From an uncultured bacterium (GTDB taxonomy: Bacteria > Armatimonadota > UBA5829), in the NCBI GenBank assembly GCA_938074205.1, contig CALJES010000017.1, positions 1 through 54,701 of the forward strand: DNA of 54,701 bases. The letters are read 5' to 3'. Under the pieces are notes generated by a model that had not been told where the DNA came from, did not search any database, and worked only from the letters and a program-made list of their open reading frames with translations. Both the position numbers and the translations under genes were made by a program. Within the stretch, counting starts at the first letter, position 1. The number at the start of each line of letters is the position of its first letter. Shown here piece by piece: positions 4,737-48,129 of the stretch.

Positions 4737-5534
4737 TTATTCCTCAGCTCGCGCATACACTGTCATCACATCGTTAGGCTGCGCAACACGGGAAAAAAGC
4801 GCCCTTACACGTGCCCGAAGGTGTCCAGGAAACAATGGAGCAGCCCAGACGGGGGGTTTTATGGGTCGGAAGCCTGTCTTTCGCAGCAGTGTTTCAACGC
4901 TTGAGCGGCCAAAATAGTAAACGTGCTCCGCCGGCTTCAAGTGACGCCATTTGTCGCGCTTTAGCCGGAAGGCAAAATGATCTACGTTTGGCGTGCCGAT
5001 CACTACTAAACCTCCGCTGACGAGCACGCGGCGCACTTCGCGCATATGCTTTGTCGGATCAGGGACGTGCTCCAGCACGTCCCACATAGTGACACAATCG
5101 AATGAACTGGATTCGAAGCCGATTTGTTCCAAGTCGCCGACGTGGGCGTTCAGACCCAGCTTCCTTGCTTCGTTTACGGCGTAGGCTGACACATCTATAC
5201 CACACGCGTCCCACCCTCGCGCGTTTGCAGCCTCCAGAAAGTATCCCAATGAACAACCAATGTCAAGCAATTTGCCGGGACGCATAATCAGTTCAATCTG
5301 CCTTAGCCGAGCATCGGCTCTCTTCAATCGGAACGCGCGCCGCCGCCGGTACAGCTCAAAATAACCAGAGTCGTACTGTTCATAGAGTTTATGGGGCAAA
5401 GGGTGAGTAAATGCCAATCCGCATTGACGGCACCTGTATACGTCGTGACTATCTTTGTGAACCAAGAGATAGCAGTTGTTCTCCTGACAGATATTGCAGG
5501 TTACTTCTGGACCTCCAGACTGCAAGACGCTCAT
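4737..5534 (-). CDS. SAM-dependent methyltransferase with N-terminal Cys motif
   Basis: A 265-residue class I methyltransferase. Two Cys pairs near the N-terminus (CNIC, then CRQCG about 20 residues later) look like a small zinc ribbon. The SAM-binding motif I is LLDIGCSLGYFLEAA; DCVTMWDVLEHVPDP and GGLVVIGTPNVDHF are the usual later motifs. Such enzymes in sugar clusters methylate deoxysugars or other glycan groups; the substrate is unknown. The ATG at 5534 follows the previous stop by 4 bases. A TTG at 5561 would give a longer form overlapping the LolA-like gene, with no better support. Confidence 0.85.
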   Translation of the reverse strand: MSVLQSGGPEVTCNICQENNCYLLVHKDSHDVYRCRQCGLAFTHPLPHKLYEQYDSGYFELYRRRRAFRLKRADARLRQIELIMRPGKLLDIGCSLGYFLEAANARGWDACGIDVSAYAVNEARKLGLNAHVGDLEQIGFESSSFDCVTMWDVLEHVPDPTKHMREVRRVLVSGGLVVIGTPNVDHFAFRLKRDKWRHLKPAEHVYYFGRSSVETLLRKTGFRPIKPPVWAAPLFPGHLRARVRALFSRVAQPNDVMTVYARAEE

Positions 5535-5538
5535 ATCT

Positions 5539-6294
5539 CTATTCGAAAAGCGAGTCAGCAAGACCAGTGTTGACCTTTATGTCAGAATACTCCGTGCTGC
5601 CCGCTTTTTCTCCGTCCGAAGTGTACACATCGATCGTTGTAGGTATCCAAATTACATTACCCACCTTGCGCGGATTCGAGTAATTCACCCTGAAAATCAG
5701 TGTCCCATCCGCAGCACGTTTCTCGAAGCGCTTGAGCCAAAGGTCCTTTGCATCCAGCCAGATGATGTGTGCCACCTCACCTTTGGGCCAGCGAAGTCGA
5801 ACCTTGATCTCGCCATTGGAAGAGGCTTCCGGGTCGTCGAGCACCTCGATCCTACGGTGGCGCCACAAGGACGTCGTAACGAGTCCTATGTCCAGCGCGT
5901 CTTGCAGTTTCGCAGGATCGTTGGAGTAATCCTTCCTGTTTGTAAAACGTATGGCGGGAGCCCGAACTATCTTGAGTGAGCCATTACATATGTACTCGAA
6001 TTTGACCATTCCGAGTTTGCCTTCGATGCGCAGCTTGTCTGGCTCCTTATAATACACTCGCGCCGACTGAAAGTCGTAAAGGCGGGCATAGTTAGACTCG
6101 ATTTTTTCCATAGCCTTCTTGTTCTTGTAGGTTACCGTACCCAAAAAGGATATGTCCTTCAACTCCGAACTTACTTGTTGAATACGCAACCTCAAATCCG
6201 CCTCGGTGAGCACGTCTCCGACACAATGGACGCGAAGAATGCTGGCAAAACCGATAGTCGCAATAAACAAAATGAACAGACAGCGATAAAGCAT
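5539..6294 (-). CDS. LolA-like periplasmic protein
   Basis: A 251-residue exported protein: signal peptide MLYRCLFILFIATIGFASILRVHCVG, then a beta-rich body. ISFLGTVTYKN, ARVYYKEPDKLRIEG, IIWLDAKDLWLKRFEKR and NVIWIPTTIDVYTSDGEK resemble the outer-membrane lipoprotein-sorting (LolA/LolB-like) fold. The ATG at 6294 sits one base after the stop of the GT2 gene, with AAGGA just before it. In an LPS operon it could carry lipoproteins or lipids through the periplasm; the exact cargo is inferred only from fold resemblance. Confidence 0.75.
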   Translation of the reverse strand: MLYRCLFILFIATIGFASILRVHCVGDVLTEADLRLRIQQVSSELKDISFLGTVTYKNKKAMEKIESNYARLYDFQSARVYYKEPDKLRIEGKLGMVKFEYICNGSLKIVRAPAIRFTNRKDYSNDPAKLQDALDIGLVTTSLWRHRRIEVLDDPEASSNGEIKVRLRWPKGEVAHIIWLDAKDLWLKRFEKRAADGTLIFRVNYSNPRKVGNVIWIPTTIDVYTSDGEKAGSTEYSDIKVNTGLADSLFE

Positions 6295-12692: not shown

Positions 12693-13445
12693 CTACCGTA
12701 ATGAACCTATCGAAGTTGAAAGTAGTTCCCAAGCCCGTTGCTCAGCAGCATTTATGCTTTGCTCGACCCGCTCTGCTGCTTCGTCCACGTTCTCGTCAGG
12801 GCCTACCTCCAAAAGTTCACCAAATACCAAGACTGCCCTAGCAAACGGTGCAGGGACCAGATGCGAATCCCACGACGGCGCCTGCAGACACGGTTTGCAA
12901 GCGACTCCAACGGGTAGAATTGGTGCTCCGGACCGCTGTGCCAAGTGAATGGTACCCGGCTGCACCTTCCGTACAGGCCCCTTTGGACCATCCGGAGTAA
13001 CCGCTAGAACATTTCCTTCGCGAAGCCTCCTGACAGCCTCCAACAATGCTTGGGCACCCCGCCGCGCACTGGAACCGCGAATGGTGACAAAGCCACGTTT
13101 AAGCAAGATCCTGTGCTGAAGCTCTCCGTCCTTAGAAAGTGATACTATTGAATAAAACTTCATATTCCGGCAGTAGTAGATGGGCAGAGTGGTAGAACCG
13201 TGCCAGAGGACTATCACTCCGCCCCTGCCCTCTTTTACCATTTGCTGCAACCGCTGCCAACCTTCAACCCTAAACCGTACTGTAGCACACAAAGCGGTAG
13301 AGACCAACCATAATAAGGTAAAGGTCGCCTCGAACTTTAACCGCTCCCACAGCGCTGTCAGACCGCGAGTGAATCCAGAACCCTTGGATCCCGAAACTGA
13401 AAGACGAGCGTTTTTGCTATCCACCGCACCCCCGCACTTTCGCAC
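12693..13445 (-). CDS. DUF374 lysophospholipid acyltransferase-like protein
   Basis: A 250-residue DUF374 protein. The family block GGVIVLWHGSTTLPIYYC (HX4D-like site replaced by WHGS...P), VSLSKDGELQHRILLKRGF, RGSSARRGAQALLEAV, LAVTPDGPKGP and QRSGAPILPVGVA are all present. DUF374 genes often lie beside waaA and are thought to acylate lipid A or another lipid. It starts with a GTG overlapping the msbA stop as TAGTG, preceded by GGAAG. A second acyltransferase (LpxL-like) is nearby, so the two may add different chains. Confidence 0.88.
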   Translation of the reverse strand: MRKCGGAVDSKNARLSVSGSKGSGFTRGLTALWERLKFEATFTLLWLVSTALCATVRFRVEGWQRLQQMVKEGRGGVIVLWHGSTTLPIYYCRNMKFYSIVSLSKDGELQHRILLKRGFVTIRGSSARRGAQALLEAVRRLREGNVLAVTPDGPKGPVRKVQPGTIHLAQRSGAPILPVGVACKPCLQAPSWDSHLVPAPFARAVLVFGELLEVGPDENVDEAAERVEQSINAAEQRAWELLSTSIGSLR

Positions 13446-15238
13446 TACAATACTTCCTCAGCTCGAAACTGAATCTTGTACATTCGCGCAAAAAGTCCGC
13501 CGCTTGCCAGTAGCTCGTTGAATGAACCCACTTCCAATATCTGGCCGCGATCCATTACCATTATGCGGTCAGCACTGGTCACCGTGGAAAGTCGATGAGC
13601 GATTACCAGAGTTGTTCTGCCTCTCATCAATCTTTCCAGTGCCTCTTGCACTACGACCTCTGATGCCGCGTCGAGCGAAGATGTAGCTTCATCAAGAATG
13701 AGTATCCGAGGGTTTTTGAGCAGCGCTCTGGCTATCGCAATTCGTTGTTTCTCACCGCCGGACAGGCCGCTTCCTCCTTCTCCCAATCGAGTGTCGTAGC
13801 CGTTCGGCATTGCCTGGATGAAATCGTGAGCGTTTGCAGCCTTGGCAGCTTCGATGATATCGAGCAAGTCGGCACCCGGACGTCCATAGGCGATATTCTC
13901 GGCAATAGTACCGCTAAATAGAATGGTTTCCTGGGGAACTATTCCGATGTGAGCGCGCAGGCTTGCTATTTTCACGTCCCTGACGTCGCAGCCTTCCACA
14001 AGCACTTGACCCGACGTGGGATCGTAAAACCTTGGTATCAAGTCGGCGACAGTGGACTTGCCCGCACCACTTGGCCCTACAAGTGCTATCACCTCCCCGG
14101 GTTCTATCTTAAAGGAGACTCCGCGAAGTATGGGTTCGCCATCGCTGTACTGGAAATGCACTTCTCTGAACTCGACGTGCCCCCGAACATCACGCAGTTC
14201 TATGGCGTCCGGTTTCTCGACCAAGTCAGACTTAGCATCGAGCAAATGGAAAATGCGCTCTGCGCCGGCCATTGTCTGTTGATAAAGCACGTTTATCTTC
14301 CCGAACTGTTTGCCCGCGGAAGCCACTATGAAAGCAAGGTACGTAAACTCGAAAAGTTTGCCGATTCGGATCTCTCCGTTTACCACCATCAATCCAGCGA
14401 ACAAAAGAAGCATTGCTCCCGACAGACCGCCCATGAACTCGACCGTTGGAATCACCGCTGCAGCCCGCCTGGCAGCTCTCAATGCGGCTCGCAGTGCCTC
14501 GGCATTAACGCGCGCGAACCTGGTCATCTCGTGCTGCTCCATAGAGAACGCTTTGACAACCCTTATTCCTCGGATTGACTCCTCAACCACCGTGTTAAGT
14601 TCGGCAAGCTTTTCCTGAGTATCTGTTGTTAGCCTGCGGATCTTCTTTGAGAGCCGGTCTATCAGCATCCCCATCAACGGAACGAATATCAGTGTAAGAG
14701 CCGCCAGTTTCCAACTTATGGCGAACAAACCAGCGAGGCCGACGACTATCAGAACCGGAGCGTCGATAGCTTGGGTAACCACCTGACTAGCGTTTGTAAT
14801 TAGTCCTACGTCGTAAGTAATGCGTGCAATGATGTCGCCCGTCTTGTTTCGATGAAAGAAGCTCAGCGGCAAAGTTTGTAGGTGATCGTATACCGCGCGG
14901 CGAACGTCGGCACCAATGCGGTTCGTTACAGAAGCCGTTAGGTAATTGTTGGCATAAGAAAAAAGTGCCTTTGGAACGTGTACCAATACGGCAAGAAACG
15001 CAACAATCAATATCAATGCAGTCTTAGCATGCGGCGGCTCAAAAATGCCATAGCGTAGGCCTATTTCCACAGGAGGGAGGTTGAGGACGTCTTTGCCGCT
15101 TGCAACAGTCGCAAACCAGTTGATGACCACTCCCAGTGCGCGGACGCACGCTGCGCTTATCAGACTGCATAGCACGGCCGCGAAAAGTCTGGCCTTATAC
15201 ACAAGAACGTATTTTAGAAGTCTCCTGCGCACGTCCAT
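13445..15238 (-). CDS. msbA: Lipid A export ABC transporter, MsbA-like
   Basis: A 597-residue half-transporter with six membrane helices (residues 1-320) and one nucleotide-binding domain. Walker A is GPSGAGKST, the Q-loop IVPQETILFSG, the signature LSGGEKQR, Walker B ILILDEATSSLD and the H-loop VIAHRLSTV. Its place in the lpx operon supports lipid A-core flipping across the inner membrane. Generic multidrug exporters share these motifs, so the substrate rests on context. No good ribosome site precedes the ATG; 59 bases separate it from the methyltransferase gene. Confidence 0.93.
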   Translation of the reverse strand: MDVRRRLLKYVLVYKARLFAAVLCSLISAACVRALGVVINWFATVASGKDVLNLPPVEIGLRYGIFEPPHAKTALILIVAFLAVLVHVPKALFSYANNYLTASVTNRIGADVRRAVYDHLQTLPLSFFHRNKTGDIIARITYDVGLITNASQVVTQAIDAPVLIVVGLAGLFAISWKLAALTLIFVPLMGMLIDRLSKKIRRLTTDTQEKLAELNTVVEESIRGIRVVKAFSMEQHEMTRFARVNAEALRAALRAARRAAAVIPTVEFMGGLSGAMLLLFAGLMVVNGEIRIGKLFEFTYLAFIVASAGKQFGKINVLYQQTMAGAERIFHLLDAKSDLVEKPDAIELRDVRGHVEFREVHFQYSDGEPILRGVSFKIEPGEVIALVGPSGAGKSTVADLIPRFYDPTSGQVLVEGCDVRDVKIASLRAHIGIVPQETILFSGTIAENIAYGRPGADLLDIIEAAKAANAHDFIQAMPNGYDTRLGEGGSGLSGGEKQRIAIARALLKNPRILILDEATSSLDAASEVVVQEALERLMRGRTTLVIAHRLSTVTSADRIMVMDRGQILEVGSFNELLASGGLFARMYKIQFRAEEVL

Positions 15239-22564: not shown

Positions 22565-23860
22565 TTATGCGCGGCCGCCGACAGTGTTCAGTATGTGCTT
22601 GGGCAAGAGGTCAGGAGTAATCGATTTGGCATCCGAATCCGCTAGCACGACTGCACGCTCGATTACGTTTTCAAGCTCCCGCACATTTCCAGGCCACTTA
22701 TACTGCAAAAGAATTTCCATAGTCTCGGGACTCGCGTATTCGACGCGCTTGTTGTTCTCAGCAGCATAAATGCCTATAAAATGCTCGACAAGAGCCGGTA
22801 TATCCTCAAGACGCTCTCTGAGAGGAGGCACATCTATGGTTATAACCTGGAGCCTATAGTAGAGGTCCTCTCTGAACTTGCCTTCTTGAACGAGTTTCTC
22901 TAGGTTCTGATTGGTAGCGGTAATCAGACGCACATCGACCTTTATTGTTTCTGTACCTCCGACTCTCTCGAACTCGCGCTCTTGCAAAACTCGTAGAAGC
23001 ATCATTTGAACGGTCATCGGAATGTCGCCGATCTCATCAAGGAAAAGCGTGCCGTGGTTCGCAAGCTCAAACCTACCCTTCTTCTGACTAACAGCCCCGG
23101 TAAACGAGCCCTTCTCGTGACCGAACAATTCACTCTGCAGGAGCTGCTCCGAAAGAGCCACACACGCTACTGCAACAAACGGCTTATCAGCGCGAATAGA
23201 ATTGTAATGAAGAGCCCTTGCTACACCTTCTTTGCCGGTGCCGCTTTCACCGCGGATCAAAACTGACGCTCTGCTGTCTTTGACCCTGTCAATCATCCTG
23301 AAAACCTCAAGCATAGCAGGACTGGTACCCACCAATACATCCGCCTTGCTCTTTCTACCAGGTGCTGCTACTTTTTGGGCCGCAATAAGTGTGCCGCGTC
23401 CTTGCTCGTTGAGTTCTTTACGGTCTAGGGCGTTTCGAACCAGTATTTTGACGTCGTCGAGATCGAACGGCTTGCACAGATAGTCGAGCGCACCCAGCTT
23501 CATAGCCTCCACCGCGCTCTTTATAGTGCCGTGGGCTGTGATCATTAGAACAGAGGTATTCGGATCAACTTCTCTAGCTGCTGATAGGAGTTCTATTCCG
23601 TTAATATCAGGCATTATGAGGTCGGTAATGAGAACATCTACGCCGGGATTTGACTGAAGCAGTTCGAGTGCCTTCCTACCGTTCTCAGCAGTCAGCACTG
23701 TGTGGCCGTCCTTTGCAAGTACAGCCTCGAGAACACGGCGAATATTGGGCTCGTCGTCGACAATGAGAATTGTACCTGTTTTCTTACTCACATAGGGATA
23801 TTTCCATATCCAGACACGAATCTTGAGTTTGTAGGCTGATAATAAGGTGCAAGGATGCAT
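22565..23860 (-). CDS. NtrC-type response regulator lacking a DNA-binding domain
   Basis: A 431-residue sigma-54 activator. The receiver domain starts GTILIVDDEPNIRRVL with phospho-acceptor Asp in VLITDLIMPDING. The AAA+ domain has Walker A GESGTGKEGVA, the sigma-54 contact loop GSFTGA (a Ser variant of GAFTGA), Walker B TLFLDEIGD and the arginine-finger region. The protein ends about 20 residues after ENVIERAVVLAD, so the usual Fis-type HTH is absent, and downstream frames show none. GGGAG precedes the ATG at 23860; a GTG at 23791 would give a more standard N-terminus. It is co-oriented with the kinase gene upstream. Confidence 0.9.
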   Translation of the reverse strand: MHPCTLLSAYKLKIRVWIWKYPYVSKKTGTILIVDDEPNIRRVLEAVLAKDGHTVLTAENGRKALELLQSNPGVDVLITDLIMPDINGIELLSAAREVDPNTSVLMITAHGTIKSAVEAMKLGALDYLCKPFDLDDVKILVRNALDRKELNEQGRGTLIAAQKVAAPGRKSKADVLVGTSPAMLEVFRMIDRVKDSRASVLIRGESGTGKEGVARALHYNSIRADKPFVAVACVALSEQLLQSELFGHEKGSFTGAVSQKKGRFELANHGTLFLDEIGDIPMTVQMMLLRVLQEREFERVGGTETIKVDVRLITATNQNLEKLVQEGKFREDLYYRLQVITIDVPPLRERLEDIPALVEHFIGIYAAENNKRVEYASPETMEILLQYKWPGNVRELENVIERAVVLADSDAKSITPDLLPKHILNTVGGRA

Positions 23861-23929
23861 TCGGACTCCCAAATCGGGACAGATATGCGCAGCTAACGAT
23901 GTCGGGGTTAACAAGTCAGCAAATAACCC

Positions 23930-26900
23930 TTATGTACGCCGTTCGACAACCAGGTCTGTTTCGTCGACGGGAAGCCTCTCTACAACCGTTTTCGGCAAGG
24001 TAACCTTGAATGTCGATCCCTGTCCTGGCTGGCTGGTTACTTCAATCTTGCCGCCGTGGCTGTCTACTATCTTGCGAACAACGCTTAGCCCTAGTCCTGT
24101 GCCCTTCGTCTTAGTAGTAACGAACGGCTGGAAGATGCGATCGATTCTGTCCGCCGGAATACCTATCCCGGTATCAGATATCGAAAAGTAGACTCCACCG
24201 TCCGTCGCCGGTCCGGTTTCGATGGTCAAGATGCCGCCGTTGGGCATTGCTTGCAGTGCGTTGACTATAATGTTCCTCAGGACTTGTTCGACCTGACGGG
24301 CGTCCGCCTCAATAACAGGAAGCGAGGGATCAAGGTTCAGCGTAAGGGTGACGCCGCTCTCCTTGATGTTGACGTTCAAAAGCTGCAGAGTTTTCTCGAT
24401 TAGTTTGTTCAGATCTACAGGCCGCGGCTCGGGTTTTAGAGGTCTTGCGAATTCCAGGAACTCAGTGGTCAACTTGTTTAAGCCGTTTACTTCTTCGATA
24501 ATGATGGACAGGAACTCGACAATCGCCCCGTGATCGCCGTATTCCTTGTGGAGAAATTGAGCTGCGCCCTTAATGGAGCTCAGCGGATTTCTGAGTTCGT
24601 GAGCTATGGTCGCTGCAAGCTGTCCCACTGCTGCCAACTCGCGCACCCGAACAAATTCTTCCTGCAGCCGGATCTCGCGGCTGACGTCTTCAAATATTAC
24701 AACTACGCCGAGGTTGTCGCCGGCAGCGTTTCTTAAGAGCGAGAGGCTCATGTTCAGGAAAACTTCGGGTGAATCCTTAGGATGGAAGCAAACTTTGTAG
24801 CCGTGGTAGGTCTCACCGGTGCGGCAGACTTTTTCAACAGCCTGTTCCATTGCCCGTATTTCGGCTTCGGGTATGCTAAGCCGCGCCAGCACATCCCGAT
24901 AATCCAATCCTACCGCCCTGGAGGCTGCAAGTCCTGTTATTCTTTCGGCAGCATTGTTCCAAGTTAGAACGACGCCGTCGGTATCCAAGGTGACAACGCC
25001 TGCAGCAACACTTGTGAGTATGCTATCAGTATAGTTGCTCAGCGTGTGGAGTGCTTCGAGCTCCTTGTAGATTGCGGCTCCCTGGCTCGCTACAATAGAT
25101 AGCACCTTGACCTGCTCTTCCGTATATCGGTTCGGCCTACTGCTGCAGACTGTAAGAACTCCTACTACCTCATCCTGAACTACAAGCGGGATAGCCATAA
25201 CCGATTTGATATGGGTGCAGCGGCGTGCTACATCTGAAAACCTTGGATCCTTGCTCGCGTCCGGGGAGATCAAGGCTTTTCGCTCCTTGATAACCCAGCT
25301 CACAAAACTGCTCTTCTCAAGAGACTCCTCAGGCAGCAGCAGGTCTGACTGGCTTTGAGATCTTGCTGCCCTAACAACAGCAGCATTCCTCTCCCGGTCT
25401 ACAGTATAAATAAATAAGTGGTCGCAATCTACCATCTCCGCGACCACCGATAGTACAGAATTCAGGGCTTCTTCCAAGCTCTCGGCTGAACTTATTTGCC
25501 TCGAGAACTCGTACAACGCCGAGAGTTCCAAGACCCTCTGCTGCATCTTGAGTTCATATGCGATAGCGTTTTTGAGGACTATTGCGGCGTGAGCTGTGAG
25601 TATGCTTACGAGCTTTATTTCATTACCGTGGAATTCATCTCCACTGCTGTCGGCAAGCGCGAGAAAGCCTATGGTGGTGTCTTCGGTAACAAGCGGAACT
25701 AACAGGACACGTGATTGGAATTGACCGAATACATTATCGAACAAGCCCGCCGTTCCTTCAGTACAGGAATTTCTGGGGCGGTCCAGAACAAGGGGGAACC
25801 TCAGTCCGCGCACTGCACCTATGAACTGCTGGTCGTCAGAGTGTTTTTGCATGTAATCCCCAACCTTGCTGAGGCACCCCGTTGGAGAAACCAGGAACAC
25901 TCTTTCGCCCTGTGGATCCAACAAGAATAGGGCAGCACCGTCGCATCTGAGCATCCGGCTACAAGTTGATACTAGAACTTCTGCCGCCCTTTCCACACCA
26001 TACGCAGCGCTCAATGCTCTGCTGTGTTCATAGAGCGCATTCATTTCGGCATACTTTCGCTCCATTGCTTCGTAAAGCCGAGCATTTTCCACGGCGATGC
26101 CAGCTTGGTTAACAAACGCAGCCAACATCTCGATGTTGGTATTTCTTATAGGGCGGTTAGTTTTACGATTGTCAACTGACACAACGCCTATACATGTGTC
26201 ACGCACTATGATAGGTACCGCGAGGAACTCGAACAGTTTTTGTTCAGCCGAAGGTGATGAATAGCTATGCATGCATTCTGAAGCCACAACCTCTCTCGAG
26301 AAAATTGGCACACGCTCCTTGGCAGCTAGACCCAGCACGCCGTCTCCAAGCTTGACTCTTTCAGCGATCTCGTCTTCAGATGAGTAACCCGTGCGAGCGC
26401 CGGCGACTAGCTCTTCCGTTCGAGGGTCCAGTAGGTAGAGACAACACCGGTCGAATCCTACAACCTCCGTAATGCCACGAACTATCTTTTCAAGCACCTG
26501 GTTGACATCGAGCGTCGAATTGATGGCTTGCATAACGTTGGACACAGCCGATATCTCTTGGATTCTCTGGTGTAGACTAGCATACAGCTCCGCATTCTCG
26601 ATAGCCAACGCGGCATGGGTAGCAAAAACGCAAAAGAGCATCAGATCTTTTTGGGTGAACGGTGGTTTCGGATGATGTCTGCGAATTGAGAGAACTCCCT
26701 TGATGAACCCATCGCGGTTTTTCAGCGGAACACACATCGAGCCACTTACGTCGGGGTGAGGAATCACCTTTTTTTCGAAGCGACTGTCCGCCGCGATATC
26801 TGCGAGAAGTACGGGCTCTCCACTGACAGCAACCTGTCCCACTATTCCCTCGCCAAGTTTTACCCTCGTACCTTTGACTATATCAGGGGCCAAACCGTAA

Positions 26901-27520
26901 CTAGCTTTGATCACTAAGCAGTTGTCTCTCTCGTCAAGAAGCATGAGTGAGCACGTCTGAGCATCCATAACAGACGCAGCCTTCGTTACGATAAGGTCGA
27001 ACACCGGCTTGGGATCTGTAGATTCAACAGCTCTACCTATTTGGTAAATCGCAGCTATTTCCTCGATTCTCCTGCTGCTAAGCTGATGCGTGTCGGTTTC
27101 AGCCGAGCGCAAACAAGCGTTTTCGACGAGCACTGACAGGAAAACGGATATCTGATCCAGCAGGGCAGCATCCACCATTCGGCCATGGAAACCCTCCAAG
27201 ACGAGCGACGAATTGAAGTCGCCAGAAGTGGTCAGCGGAATCGTAACAGCTCGGCTGAATAGGTTTCTGGGCTGCGAGCATTCAGTTGGTGCCAAGTTAA
27301 CGGAGGAGCATCCCGAATGCGCATTCTCGCCGACTGCAGACACCCAGGTTTTGGACTCACCGGTAGATGATCGTCTGACAACGATCGATGCAGCTTCTAG
27401 AGCGAGCAATTCTCGCAGCTTATCCAAGACTACCTGGAGGCGTTCATCCGGACCCGAGACCGATCCGGCAGCTTTAATCAATGCAGGCAAAACTGATGTT
27501 TCGCGCGAGGAACCCAGCAC
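23930..27520 (-). CDS. Five-GAF, PAS histidine kinase
   Basis: A 1196-residue soluble sensor kinase. Five GAF-like domains run from about residue 1 to 800 (the first degenerate), each opening with a helical linker and an 'IENAELY'-like exit helix. Then come a PAS domain (NYTDSILTSVAAGVVTLDTDG, about 805-930), HisKA with the phospho-acceptor His in TIAHELRNPLSSIKG, and HATPase with NALQAMPNGG, DTGIGIPADR and KGTGLGLSVV. There is no membrane segment, so it senses internal signals. Start is GTG with AGAGG 9 bases before. Its partner is most likely the NtrC-type regulator 69 bases downstream. Confidence 0.93.
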   Translation of the reverse strand: MLGSSRETSVLPALIKAAGSVSGPDERLQVVLDKLRELLALEAASIVVRRSSTGESKTWVSAVGENAHSGCSSVNLAPTECSQPRNLFSRAVTIPLTTSGDFNSSLVLEGFHGRMVDAALLDQISVFLSVLVENACLRSAETDTHQLSSRRIEEIAAIYQIGRAVESTDPKPVFDLIVTKAASVMDAQTCSLMLLDERDNCLVIKASYGLAPDIVKGTRVKLGEGIVGQVAVSGEPVLLADIAADSRFEKKVIPHPDVSGSMCVPLKNRDGFIKGVLSIRRHHPKPPFTQKDLMLFCVFATHAALAIENAELYASLHQRIQEISAVSNVMQAINSTLDVNQVLEKIVRGITEVVGFDRCCLYLLDPRTEELVAGARTGYSSEDEIAERVKLGDGVLGLAAKERVPIFSREVVASECMHSYSSPSAEQKLFEFLAVPIIVRDTCIGVVSVDNRKTNRPIRNTNIEMLAAFVNQAGIAVENARLYEAMERKYAEMNALYEHSRALSAAYGVERAAEVLVSTCSRMLRCDGAALFLLDPQGERVFLVSPTGCLSKVGDYMQKHSDDQQFIGAVRGLRFPLVLDRPRNSCTEGTAGLFDNVFGQFQSRVLLVPLVTEDTTIGFLALADSSGDEFHGNEIKLVSILTAHAAIVLKNAIAYELKMQQRVLELSALYEFSRQISSAESLEEALNSVLSVVAEMVDCDHLFIYTVDRERNAAVVRAARSQSQSDLLLPEESLEKSSFVSWVIKERKALISPDASKDPRFSDVARRCTHIKSVMAIPLVVQDEVVGVLTVCSSRPNRYTEEQVKVLSIVASQGAAIYKELEALHTLSNYTDSILTSVAAGVVTLDTDGVVLTWNNAAERITGLAASRAVGLDYRDVLARLSIPEAEIRAMEQAVEKVCRTGETYHGYKVCFHPKDSPEVFLNMSLSLLRNAAGDNLGVVVIFEDVSREIRLQEEFVRVRELAAVGQLAATIAHELRNPLSSIKGAAQFLHKEYGDHGAIVEFLSIIIEEVNGLNKLTTEFLEFARPLKPEPRPVDLNKLIEKTLQLLNVNIKESGVTLTLNLDPSLPVIEADARQVEQVLRNIIVNALQAMPNGGILTIETGPATDGGVYFSISDTGIGIPADRIDRIFQPFVTTKTKGTGLGLSVVRKIVDSHGGKIEVTSQPGQGSTFKVTLPKTVVERLPVDETDLVVERRT

Positions 27521-44195: not shown

Positions 44196-44223
44196 TTGAC
44201 ACCAGTCGCGAGCGTGGTATAAT
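44196..44223 (+). promoter_or_regulatory. Sigma-70 promoter of the S41 protease operon
   Basis: TTGACA (44196-44201), 16 bases, TATAAT (44218-44223). Both boxes are perfect. Transcription should begin near 44230. Confidence 0.85.
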
Positions 44224-44230
44224 TGAGTTA

Positions 44231-44260
44231 GCCGGGCAGGTTATCCCGGCGGTTTTTGTT
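44231..44260 (+). promoter_or_regulatory. Leader hairpin with T tract, possible attenuator
   Basis: GCCGGG (44231-44236) pairs with CCCGGC (44245-44250), then GGTTTTTGTT. This resembles a short intrinsic terminator placed at the very start of the transcript, before the ATG at 44273. It could also simply stabilise the 5' end. Confidence 0.35.
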
Positions 44261-44272
44261 ACGATCAACGGC

Positions 44273-45682
44273 ATGAGAAACTACAGAGCCTTAACATTTA
44301 TCCTGCTCATTACAGCTTTCTTCGCCACCGGCTACGCTGCCAGAATCGCCACTATAGCGCACGAACGATCAGCCATCCGTCAGTTCAGCCCATCTCCCGT
44401 ACGAACACCCGGTGTACCGGTAGCGACAACCCACCTAGAAAGCGCAGGTAACATTGATCTTGGTCCGCTTGAGGTAATGCTGACAGTGTTGAGAAGCCTG
44501 CGAGAGCACTTTGTTGACCCCATAACACCGAGCGACGAAGGCCGCATGGCACGCGAAGCACTACGGGCAATGCTAGCATCGTTGCAAGATCCCAATACGC
44601 GCTTCCTGGATCCCGACCAACTGAAACTCGTCAGCGAGGCAATGAGAGGCCAATACCATGGGATAGGCGCATTTCTTGCCATCAAGAAGATCAAAGCAGG
44701 TAATATTCAGGAAGAACATCTGATACTAGTAACCCCCATTGACGATGGCCCGGCAGCCAAAGCCGGACTAAGGGCTGGCGACGACATTGTGGCGATCGAT
44801 GGTCGAGATGTCCTTCCCTTGGATCCCTTCCAGCGAGCCAGCGAAGTCATAAAAGAGGAAAGGAAAAAGGCTATTGACAAGGACGTCCTGCGAAAGCACA
44901 TCGAATCGGAAACAAAGCGGATAGAAGAAGGCATACCGATACTAAAAGCTGAGCGCATGTTGACAAGTGAGGATGACAAAGAGCTCGAACTTACCGTCGT
45001 CAGAAAAGGGACTCCACAACCCATCAAGGTGAAGGTCAAAACCGAGGCTTTTTTTGTCCAACCTGTGTCGTGGAAGCTTACCGATAACGACCAGCTCGGC
45101 TACATCAGACTGGGTTGCTTTACCGATCGCACGCCAGACGAACTTGAAAGTGCTGTGTATGGTCTCAAGTCAAAAGGCGCAAAAGGAATTATTCTCGACC
45201 TGCGGAACACCGCAGCCGGCAACTTGGAAACTGTACTTTCAGCTGCCAAGGTTTTCATACCAGGAAGGGTTTTTGCAATTGAGCACAAGTCGCGCAACCG
45301 AAAAGTGCCGATACGGGTTGAACAATATCCGAGGGACCGTGTTTGGAACGGTCCGATGGTCGTTCTCGTAAACTCAGGAACTGCTAGAATGGCTGAAGCT
45401 TTGGCTGTCGCTTTGAAGGACAATATCGCCGCGAAAATTGTTGGTGAACCTTCGTATGGAGACCCATCCAGCGTGACGCTTATGGAACTCCGTGATGGGT
45501 CTGGCATAGCCATGACAACGGGAAAACTTGTTCCGTTGAGGAGCCCCGACTACCATGGAAAGGGACTTCACCCTGATATCCTAGTTGCTTCGAACGCGCA
45601 GCGGGATGAACAGCTGAATGAAGCGACGAAGCTTTTGCGGTCAATGACAAGGAGCTTAGTGTCCACACAGTCTGGGACATAG
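44273..45682 (+). CDS. S41-family pseudoprotease, catalytic triad lost
   Basis: A 469-residue CtpA-like protein with an N-terminal signal/anchor (ALTFILLITAFFATGYAA), a PDZ domain (PIDDGPAAKAGLRAGDDIVAIDG) and an S41 core. A charged insertion of about 40 residues splits the PDZ domain after residue 190. Aligned without gaps to the next gene, the catalytic Ser is Arg372, the Lys is Asp397 and the Gln is Val401. It therefore cannot work as a normal S41 peptidase and may bind substrates or regulate its active neighbour. Start at 44273 puts the signal peptide first. Own promoter; 4 bases to the next gene. Confidence 0.9.
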   Translation: MRNYRALTFILLITAFFATGYAARIATIAHERSAIRQFSPSPVRTPGVPVATTHLESAGNIDLGPLEVMLTVLRSLREHFVDPITPSDEGRMAREALRAMLASLQDPNTRFLDPDQLKLVSEAMRGQYHGIGAFLAIKKIKAGNIQEEHLILVTPIDDGPAAKAGLRAGDDIVAIDGRDVLPLDPFQRASEVIKEERKKAIDKDVLRKHIESETKRIEEGIPILKAERMLTSEDDKELELTVVRKGTPQPIKVKVKTEAFFVQPVSWKLTDNDQLGYIRLGCFTDRTPDELESAVYGLKSKGAKGIILDLRNTAAGNLETVLSAAKVFIPGRVFAIEHKSRNRKVPIRVEQYPRDRVWNGPMVVLVNSGTARMAEALAVALKDNIAAKIVGEPSYGDPSSVTLMELRDGSGIAMTTGKLVPLRSPDYHGKGLHPDILVASNAQRDEQLNEATKLLRSMTRSLVSTQSGT

Positions 45683-45686
45683 AGAG

Positions 45687-47063
45687 ATGAAAAGGCTAAA
45701 TATCAACAAGCTAATACCCGCGCTTTTTCTATTGCTCTCAGCCTTCGTAGTAGGCTTTATTGCACCGGATGTGCTAGCAAGTCACGGTGATTTGCGCAGT
45801 GTAACATCTAGTCTGCAACTGCTTCCGCAACGCCTAGAAACCCTGCTAGTTCAGGCTCAGGTTGAAAAAGAAAATGAGCCGTTGCCCATTATCGAAACAT
45901 ACTCCGCAGTGTTGGAGCAACTGAAGGCAGATTACTACGGCCAGGGAAACATCGACGAGCGCAGGCTTACTTATAGCGCAATTCGCGGAATGCTAAGCGC
46001 TTTGAATGACCCCTTTACCCGTTTCTTGGACCCCGATGAATACAAGAGTATGCGCGAGGAGAATGAGGGCAACTTCACCGGAATAGGAGCTCAGCTGGAC
46101 ACGAATAAGAACGGCGAGGTTTATGTTAAAGAGCCTCTGCCCGACACGCCTGCCATGCGCGCTGGCGTAAAAGCCAATGACGTCATCGTTAGTGTCGACG
46201 ACAAACCAATCAAGAATCTGGACATTGAACAAGTCGTCAAAATGATTCGGGGGCCTGCCGGGACCAAGGTCAAGTTGGGAATTAGGCGAACAGGAGTGCC
46301 CAGGATTATCTATAAGGTCATAACGCGGCAAGTGGTGCAGTTTCGAATGGTCAAGTATCAAATGCTGGACAGCAAAGACGGTATCGGCTACATTCGGCTT
46401 TATCAGTTCAATGAGCAGTGCGATACGCAGTTTGACCAGGCTTTGACGCAACTGGAGAAACAAAATCTGAAGGGCCTGATACTGGACCTCAGGGGTAATC
46501 CGGGAGGACTTCTCCAAGCTGCCGTAGACATTGGCAGCAGGTTCATCCCCAGCGGACCTGTTGTCGTGATTCAAGAGCGCGGCGGGCAAAAGAACCCAAT
46601 TTACGTAAAGGAAGAGAAGCACAACCACAAGAGGTATCCATTGGTAGTGCTGGTGGACAAGCACAGTGCAAGCGCCTCCGAAATCGTATCCGGCGCGATA
46701 AAAGACACCGGCGTTGGAACTCTCGTCGGCACCAGAACTTTTGGCAAAGGTCGAGTTCAAACCATAATGCCTTTGCAGGACGGCTCTGCCGTAGCTATTA
46801 CCACAGCAAAGTACCTCACGCCTAACGGAACTGACATTCACAAGAAGGGCATAGAGCCTGACGTTAAGGTGGAACCCCCCGACACATTCGAAGTAGGCGA
46901 CCTGAAGACCGATGTGCAGCTAGCCAGGAGCATCCAGGTTTTGAAGGTGAAGATGGGCTTGCTGCCAAATAGCGTACTTGACGAGTTGAAAAAAGCCGCC
47001 CAAGCGGGTTCAACTCAGAGCAGTTCGACCACCAGTTCAGAGCGAGCTGCAAAGCCTAACTAA
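45687..47063 (+). CDS. C-terminal processing peptidase, CtpA-like
   Basis: A 458-residue active S41 peptidase. Signal/anchor NKLIPALFLLLSAFVVGFIAPDVLA; PDZ domain (GIGAQLD ... AGVKANDVIVSVDDKPI); catalytic Ser329 in HSASASE, Lys354 and Gln358 in TFGKGRVQ. The 25- and 4-residue spacings match Bacillus CtpB. It cleaves C-termini of envelope proteins in the periplasm. The tail is Ser/Thr/Gln-rich. Its stop codon lies inside the first copy of a 33-bp direct repeat. Confidence 0.94.
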   Translation: MKRLNINKLIPALFLLLSAFVVGFIAPDVLASHGDLRSVTSSLQLLPQRLETLLVQAQVEKENEPLPIIETYSAVLEQLKADYYGQGNIDERRLTYSAIRGMLSALNDPFTRFLDPDEYKSMREENEGNFTGIGAQLDTNKNGEVYVKEPLPDTPAMRAGVKANDVIVSVDDKPIKNLDIEQVVKMIRGPAGTKVKLGIRRTGVPRIIYKVITRQVVQFRMVKYQMLDSKDGIGYIRLYQFNEQCDTQFDQALTQLEKQNLKGLILDLRGNPGGLLQAAVDIGSRFIPSGPVVVIQERGGQKNPIYVKEEKHNHKRYPLVVLVDKHSASASEIVSGAIKDTGVGTLVGTRTFGKGRVQTIMPLQDGSAVAITTAKYLTPNGTDIHKKGIEPDVKVEPPDTFEVGDLKTDVQLARSIQVLKVKMGLLPNSVLDELKKAAQAGSTQSSSTTSSERAAKPN

Positions 47064-47144
47064 ATAAGTCGACAACCAGGAACTCGATGCTGAACTAAAA
47101 GAGTTCCTGGAAGCTGCAAAGCCTAACTAAATAAGTCGACAACC
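47045..47144. repeat. 33-bp direct repeats flanking a hairpin
   Basis: Identical 33-bp copies, beginning AGCTGCAAAGCC and ending GTCGACAACC, at 47045-47077 and 47112-47144. Between them CCAGGAACTC (47076-47085) pairs with GAGTTCCTGG (47101-47110). The first copy holds the last codons and stop of the ctpA-like gene; the second is non-coding. It looks like a recent duplication or a small palindromic insertion. The hairpin may weaken read-through to the deacetylase gene. Confidence 0.9.
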
Positions 47145-47151
47145 CCCTCCT

Positions 47152-48129
47152 ATGACTCCGAAGAAAAAGGCCAGACTTAAGAGCGCTGAGTCGATTCTTC
47201 CCTTGGTAATACTGACCGCTGCGATCATTATCGGCGTGGCAGCTGGAAATTACCTGGGTAGAATGGATTCCGAACACTTTAAATCCAGATCTGTCAGAAG
47301 CATCTCAGGTAAAAATCGGGACTACCGAACTCCAACTGTGAACGAACGCCAGGAAGAGCGGGCAGCAACCGCAAATCGCCGGGCCGAGCAACGCAGCGTG
47401 AATCAGGAGCCGCATCGTGCTAGTGATAGACTTTTACATGGCAGCCTCCACGCGTCGAAACCAGACAAGCCGGCCACCCAACGTCCTGGTCTGGTATCCG
47501 CGCCGCACAAATCTGTCGACCAGCCAAGCAGGGAGCCATCACGCCACGACGGAGCGAATCTTGTCGCACTTACCTTCGATGCTGGAGCGTCAAGTGCGCC
47601 GACGCCGAGTCTGCTGGACACACTAAAATCAGCGGGGCTGCGAGTCACCTTCTTTTTAACAGGCAAATGGTGCGAACGAAACCGATTCCTTGTTAGTAGG
47701 ATAGTAGACGAAGGTCACGAGGTAGCCAATCATACCTATTCGCATCCTGACTTGCGTAAGCTAACTGACCAAGAGATCCGATATGAACTTGCGAAGACAG
47801 ACGAGATAGTTCAAAAGATAACCGGCCAGCACTGCGCGCCTTATTTTCGACCACCATATGGAGCCCGTGACAAACGCGTGATCGAAGCCGCTCGAGAAGC
47901 AGGCTACACCTGTGTGTATTGGTCGCTCGACACCTGGGACGCTTTCAAACGCGGCATAACGGCGGACGAAATCAAACAGCGGGTGATCAGTAAGGTGAAG
48001 CCAGGAGACATCGTTCTCATGCATTGCGGCAGTTGGGCTACCGCAGAAGCCTTGCCTGCTATTATACGCGAACTCGAGTCTCGTGACTTTAGAATAGTGC
48101 CTGTCTCAGAGTTGATCGCACCACCATAA
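47152..48129 (+). CDS. Polysaccharide deacetylase (NodB/CE4)
   Basis: A 325-residue membrane-anchored deacetylase. A single N-terminal helix (ILPLVILTAAIIIGVAAG) and a disordered, charged linker (residues 35-135) precede the NodB domain. Motif 1 is LTFDAGA (the second Asp is Ala, as in a known subgroup), motif 2 NHTYSHPD with both metal His, motif 3 RPPYGARD, motif 4 SLDTWDA, motif 5 VLMHCG. It removes N-acetyl groups from a cell-wall or surface polysaccharide. No ribosome site is seen before the ATG. Third gene of the S41 operon. Confidence 0.9.
   Translation: MTPKKKARLKSAESILPLVILTAAIIIGVAAGNYLGRMDSEHFKSRSVRSISGKNRDYRTPTVNERQEERAATANRRAEQRSVNQEPHRASDRLLHGSLHASKPDKPATQRPGLVSAPHKSVDQPSREPSRHDGANLVALTFDAGASSAPTPSLLDTLKSAGLRVTFFLTGKWCERNRFLVSRIVDEGHEVANHTYSHPDLRKLTDQEIRYELAKTDEIVQKITGQHCAPYFRPPYGARDKRVIEAAREAGYTCVYWSLDTWDAFKRGITADEIKQRVISKVKPGDIVLMHCGSWATAEALPAIIRELESRDFRIVPVSELIAPP

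Follow-up and report, generated by a model that had tools for sequence, protein, structure and literature searches.

The gene pair and its setting

The window analysed here, the whole stretch of 54,701 nucleotides, carries two adjacent S41 genes, the upstream one encoding a catalytically dead S41/PDZ protein (hereafter pseudo-CTP) and the downstream one an active CTP (CtpA). These are the only S41 genes in the source genome (3.02 Mb, 97.9% complete). The pair and its flanking elements are:

44196..44223, + strand: extended -10 sigma-70 promoter of the pair, TTGACA-16-TG.TATAAT
44231..44258, + strand: terminator-like leader hairpin, GCCGGG-N8-CCCGGC followed by GGTTTTT, between promoter and start codon
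44273..45682, + strand: pseudo-CTP gene, 469 aa (ORF call, Pfam, alignment, model, orthologues)
45687..47063, + strand: ctpA, 458 aa (ORF call, Pfam, TIGR00225 prc above cutoff)
47152..48129, + strand: polysaccharide deacetylase, PdaB/PgdA-like, a frequent downstream neighbour (Pfam/NCBIfam profiles)

A preliminary description of this DNA had placed the two genes 4 bases apart under one perfect promoter, and both statements hold: 4 bases separate 45682 from 45687, and the promoter matches consensus at 12 of 12 positions, with TG preceding the -10 element. In the close relatives L058, L059, L061 and L063 the -10 is identical and most of the -35 is retained. The leader hairpin was absent from that description; its stem and T run are invariant in the same four relatives with a variable loop, and it is possibly an attenuator.

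Peptidase_S41 (PF03572) scores 105.9 bits in the upstream and 205.8 bits in the downstream protein, and Pfam finds a PDZ domain in both. With the NCBIfam model TIGR00225 (prc), CtpA reaches 362 bits and the pseudo-CTP 194, under the cutoff of 218.6. A polysaccharide deacetylase follows ctpA in the window, PF01522 was detected in 14 of the 33 genes scanned downstream of such pairs, and an M23 peptidase with a PcsB-type coiled coil precedes the pair in 6 of 32 neighbours scanned. The setting of the pair thus points to peptidoglycan, in whose control Pseudomonas CtpA and E. coli Prc act (PMC11021448, PMC8764530).

Directly behind ctpA lies a perfect 33-nt direct repeat (47045-47077 and 47112-47144), by which the last codons and stop of ctpA are copied into the following gap; between the copies stands AGGAACTC...GAGTTCCT. 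Elsewhere in the window, all on the minus strand, are a CRISPR array of nine repeats matching Rfam CRISPR-DR2 (23-582), an RtcR-like CARF-AAA-HTH regulator (22565-23914; PADLOC RtcR_PspF2, 3.8e-102) and beside it a 1196-aa protein with no PADLOC match (23930-27520). Partial matches to the MADS defence proteins mad2 and mad3/mad8 (4737-5561 and 13445-15238, both minus strand) may represent a diverged defence island or general domains.

Lost catalytic site and retained parts of the pseudo-CTP

The residues at the catalytic positions of the two proteins, assigned by alignment, are:

45386..45388, + strand: Arg372 of the pseudo-CTP, replacing the catalytic Ser
45461..45463, + strand: Asp397 of the pseudo-CTP, replacing the catalytic Lys
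45473..45475, + strand: Val401 of the pseudo-CTP, replacing the catalytic Gln
46671..46673, + strand: catalytic Ser329 of CtpA
46746..46748, + strand: catalytic Lys354 of CtpA
46758..46760, + strand: catalytic Gln358 of CtpA

From an ungapped alignment of the two proteins, the preliminary description had concluded that CtpA keeps the triad at the spacing known from Bacillus CtpB and that the pseudo-CTP has lost all three residues. We confirm this reading: no gaps appear through the SASASE...FGKG..Q stretch when D1P and CtpB are included, and the spacing of 25 and 4 in CtpA equals that of S309/K334/Q338 in Bacillus subtilis CtpB (PMC3808539). We then compared 112 pseudo-CTPs from 22 families of Armatimonadota with 133 active CtpA-type sequences. 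Ser-Lys-Gln is present in 133/133 of the latter. At the Ser position the pseudo-CTPs have N (39), G (38), R (16), S (14), K (3), A (1) or D (1), and at the Lys position D (86), E (7), N (5), L (5), R (3) or others; Gln is retained in 51/112. Ser and Lys occur together in none, the single sequence with Lys at the Lys position (L209, doubtfully aligned) having Gly at the Ser position. Members of family f43 (L194-L198) have Arg at Ser and Leu or Met at Lys, unlike the common N/G-D-Q pattern. Both the triad loss and the pairing, with its gene order, are thus conserved through 22 families, a recurrence far beyond chance. Among the 112 orthologues there is no homologue bearing an intact triad, the finding that the preliminary description had named as its refutation. 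These data strongly support the view that the upstream protein is a pseudoprotease and has an active CtpA as its partner gene product.

The other parts of the pseudo-CTP are:

44282..44374, + strand: N-terminal hydrophobic helix, aa 4-34, putative export signal or membrane anchor (helix in the model)
44462..44584, + strand: N-terminal dimerisation region, two helices, aa 64-104 (interface positions hydrophobic)
44648..45058, + strand: PDZ domain, aa 126-262, with carboxylate loop GIGA at aa 130-133 (Pfam, alignment, model)
44816..44929, + strand: pseudo-CTP-specific PDZ insertion, aa 182-219, two predicted helices (alignment, model)

An AlphaFold2 model of the pseudo-CTP (60 sequences; pLDDT 83.5, pTM 0.76) matches CtpB, H. 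pylori CtpA, P. aeruginosa CtpA and D1P over residues 60-456, with Z 27-32 for CtpB/CtpA. By this full-length structural match, the prediction gives the pseudo-CTP a complete CTP body, minus the chemistry, in line with the earlier statement that the fold and PDZ domain are kept. The closest described architecture is that of the S41A CTP CtpB of Bacillus subtilis (PDB 4c2c-4c2h), which shares N-terminal dimerisation helices, PDZ, cap and core, aligns over 344 residues (Z up to 32) and has the GIGA loop in common. The pseudo-CTP differs from it in that Ser, Lys and often Gln are gone, Arg168 is replaced, a helical insertion has entered the PDZ domain, and a paralogous partner gene is constantly present.

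Conservation is unevenly distributed over this body. As a ratio of column information, dead family over active partner, the N-terminal dimerisation helices score 0.90 and the first PDZ half 1.03, and the values fall to 0.67 in the second half of the PDZ domain, 0.69 in the Ser helix, 0.56 in the Lys/Gln loop and 0.48 in the weakly conserved C-terminal (dimerisation) helix. The F..G motif of the N-terminal hydrophobic helix is retained in both proteins of the family. At the 12 positions that correspond to dimer-interface residues of Pseudomonas CtpA (PMC8764530), the pseudo-CTP of the window is hydrophobic in 12/12, and the mean of the dead family is 0.90. Similarity to two reference sets, unpaired CTPs from the phylum and CTPs from other phyla, follows the same division: for helix H1 and the first PDZ half, the pseudo-CTP is as close to the references as its active partner is (p 0.09-0.97), helix H2 is intermediate (p 0.04 and 0.3), and in the core and catalytic loops the pseudo-CTP is much further away (p 5e-4 to 2e-8). 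These comparisons argue that selection is relaxed at the catalytic site of the pseudo-CTP and not everywhere.

Within the PDZ domain, the carboxylate loop is nearly invariant in the pseudo-CTPs (G 112/112, I 95/112, G 111/112, A 90/112). Arg168 of CtpB, the PDZ sensor that couples ligand binding to the active site (PMC3808539), has its counterpart in only 7/112 (T in 51/112); its near-universal replacement would be expected in proteins that have no active site left to align. Adjoining the sensor site is the inserted segment, which the preliminary description had given as about 40 charged residues. Its length stands, with 65 residues against 27 between equal anchors in the window (about 38 extra); its charge, 48% in the window, does not generalise, being commonly near 30% in orthologues. 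The segment measures 45-78 residues in pseudo-CTPs compared with 22 in most actives, and in the model it forms helices at 185-198 and 203-218 (pLDDT about 66-74).

Distribution and origin of the pair

Homologues of the upstream protein occur in 14/15 genomes of its family, 18/19 of its order and 26/28 of its class, the two genomes of the class in which none was found being incomplete assemblies. Across the phylum, the dead-protein profile matches 188/291 genomes at 1e-60, a count whose weak end includes a dozen from families (f18, f22, f24, f26, f31) whose loci, where read, hold an unpaired active CTP, and whose limit misses some weaker members known to exist. Gene order is constant: the dead gene stands first and on the same strand as ctpA in 109/109 loci, with spacings from overlaps to gaps of 246 bases and a 4-base overlap (-4) as the commonest arrangement.

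No dead copy was found adjoining any of 80 CTP genes from phyla other than Armatimonadota. Genome searches gave none either, whether in 24 whole genomes from such phyla, in 194 from the cyanobacterial phylum to which genome G298 belongs (at 1e-64) or in 3 from the UBP13 phylum. In the phylum of the Clostridium genome G310, 5/199 genomes passed 1e-62; individual examination placed two of these with the active CTPs by score, and the other three match in the C-terminal part only. A full-length match from the same phylum (L317) was rejected as a pseudo-CTP because it has an intact SASASE...FGKG..Q and a better active-profile score. Altogether, none was detected outside Armatimonadota in more than 400 genomes of other phyla, at limits under which a far-diverged member could escape. 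A scan of genome contigs with a single pseudo-CTP sequence gave no match, and the pseudo-CTP alignment contains no stretch conserved enough to serve as a scan pattern.

All dead members form one clade (support 100 in FastTree, SH-aLRT 100 in IQ-TREE), as do the paired actives (97 and 92, respectively); how these two clades branch relative to the unpaired actives is not settled by either tree. This picture fits one duplication with early loss of Lys, later drift at Ser and co-inheritance since. In the two pseudo-CTPs of family f6 (L134:6303-7733, minus strand; L221:1-1245, minus strand), and only there, the PDZ insertion is missing at its usual place, and another is found in an earlier PDZ loop. 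They have Arg at the Lys position, and the active partner from f6 splits off first within the paired clade; the f6 pseudo-CTPs may show an early stage.

A candidate built-in partner of CtpA

We propose, as a reading to which we give an even chance, that the pseudo-CTP is a non-catalytic, PDZ-bearing partner that hetero-dimerises with CtpA through the N-terminal helices and recruits or gates substrates. One copy of a duplicated CtpA would have lost the catalytic Ser-Lys pair a single time, close to the root of those Armatimonadota lineages in which the pseudo-CTP occurs, and both proteins would have been inherited since as a tightly linked and probably translationally coupled pair. They would be exported together and may co-assemble through the N-terminal helices. 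The PDZ domain of the dead subunit could then hold substrate C-termini, with the helical insertion beside the groove, and the dead subunit may present substrates to the single active subunit or gate it. Likely substrates are envelope proteins, for example peptidoglycan hydrolases. The preliminary description had suggested a hetero-oligomer whose dead subunit selects or limits substrates, and the preferential conservation of the dimer helices and the PDZ carboxylate loop agrees with this. A dimer with one active site appears workable, since only one CtpA of the dimer is activated in Pseudomonas CtpA-LbcA (PMC11021448). The replaced sensor Arg168 and the diverged second half of the PDZ domain suggest that peptide binding by the pseudo-CTP may be altered.

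A further hint comes from the active partners. At CtpA position 72, which lies in the interface, paired actives have changed from F to Y, and in the dimer region positions 84 (V to Y) and 97 (G to A/S/N) have also shifted, the pseudo-CTP keeping the older residue in each case. The PDZ domain shows four more departures of the paired actives, at positions 139, 146, 148 and 149, again with the older class of residue in the dead partner. All seven positions head a post-hoc scan that set the paired actives against unpaired CTPs from the phylum and CTPs from other phyla. Such shifts would be expected if, within one dimer, the two subunits had taken on separate roles. Across 107 pairs (Neff 64, underpowered), inter-protein mutual information showed no enrichment of the dimer helices, and its top pairs resemble gaps and phylogeny.

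Homodimers of each protein fit the retained helices equally well. One alternative is a pseudo-CTP homodimer that replaces no CtpA subunit and delivers substrates or activates in trans, as in NlpI-Prc and LbcA-CtpA. Such a free adaptor would likewise retain the dimer helices and carboxylate loop, and characterised CTPs do have unrelated adaptors (PMC11021448); yet paired actives changed at 72, 84 and 97 and the pseudo-CTP did not, which hints, indirectly, at two different, matched surfaces, and we regard this alternative as rather unlikely. The same retained loop without catalysis could instead serve as a brake or decoy, the pseudo-CTP holding the same C-termini and limiting CtpA either as a homodimer or as a poisoned subunit, at a pseudo-CTP:CtpA ratio that tight gene linkage would fix. 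With a conserved insertion gained and the sensor Arg lost, however, its PDZ domain is no plain copy of that of CtpA, and we hold a braking role to be improbable.

The catalytic pocket itself might have acquired a new function, binding a ligand or performing other chemistry. Its mostly N/G-D-Q composition, with the recurrent Asp and Gln noted above, indicates that it is not drifting freely, and retinol-binding protein 3 (IRBP/RBP3), whose S41-fold modules have the same fold by sequence and structure matches, offers a precedent for this fold without peptidase use. That protein, however, consists of eukaryotic tandem modules that bind retinoids and has no protease partner gene, unlike the pseudo-CTP. 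Against a conserved new pocket, the Ser position varies among seven residues, members from f16 and f43 lack the Asp-Gln pattern, and the catalytic loops are among the parts least conserved relative to the active partner, so that we rate this possibility slightly lower still. A pseudogene decaying in place and kept by proximity would account for the lost triad and deserves next to no credence: frames are open, the PDZ and dimer regions are conserved, the members form one old clade, and retention throughout the phylum, in 22 families, rules decay out.

Taken one step further, the heterodimer reading would make CtpA in Armatimonadota an obligate asymmetric heterodimer with one active site, in which the dead paralogue is a built-in adaptor supplying substrate binding and gating; we put this stronger form at a little under an even chance. 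In Pseudomonas aeruginosa CtpA-LbcA and E. coli Prc-NlpI, too, a CTP engaged in controlling peptidoglycan works alongside a protein that is not itself a protease. Those partners, LbcA and NlpI, are TPR lipoproteins unrelated to the CTPs, whereas the candidate partner here, which would take their role, is a dead copy of the protease itself.

CTPs are restrained by PDZ domains and by unrelated adaptor lipoproteins. Dead relatives that act in the pathway of an active protease include ClpR of the Clp proteases, CspC of C. difficile and MamO; these belong to other protease families, and none is an S41A CTP. What is new here, in the papers searched, is the occurrence of a dead partner in the CTP family. 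The literature searched, with subscription papers mostly outside it, contained no report of an inactive CTP paralogue, an S41 pseudoprotease or an Armatimonadota CTP pair. If the stronger heterodimer reading is true, the pseudo-CTP would be, as far as those papers show, the first pseudoprotease subunit in the CTP family.

How CTPs choose their substrates is a standing question, and a dead-copy partner kept phylum-wide makes it testable by co-expression and gene removal, to which cultured species such as Fimbriimonas ginsengisoli are in principle open. The pair is also a natural experiment on which parts of a CTP serve something besides cutting. If the stronger form of our proposal is true, it would represent a hard-wired form of the half-activated dimer of Pseudomonas CtpA-LbcA and a division of labour within a duplicated protease.
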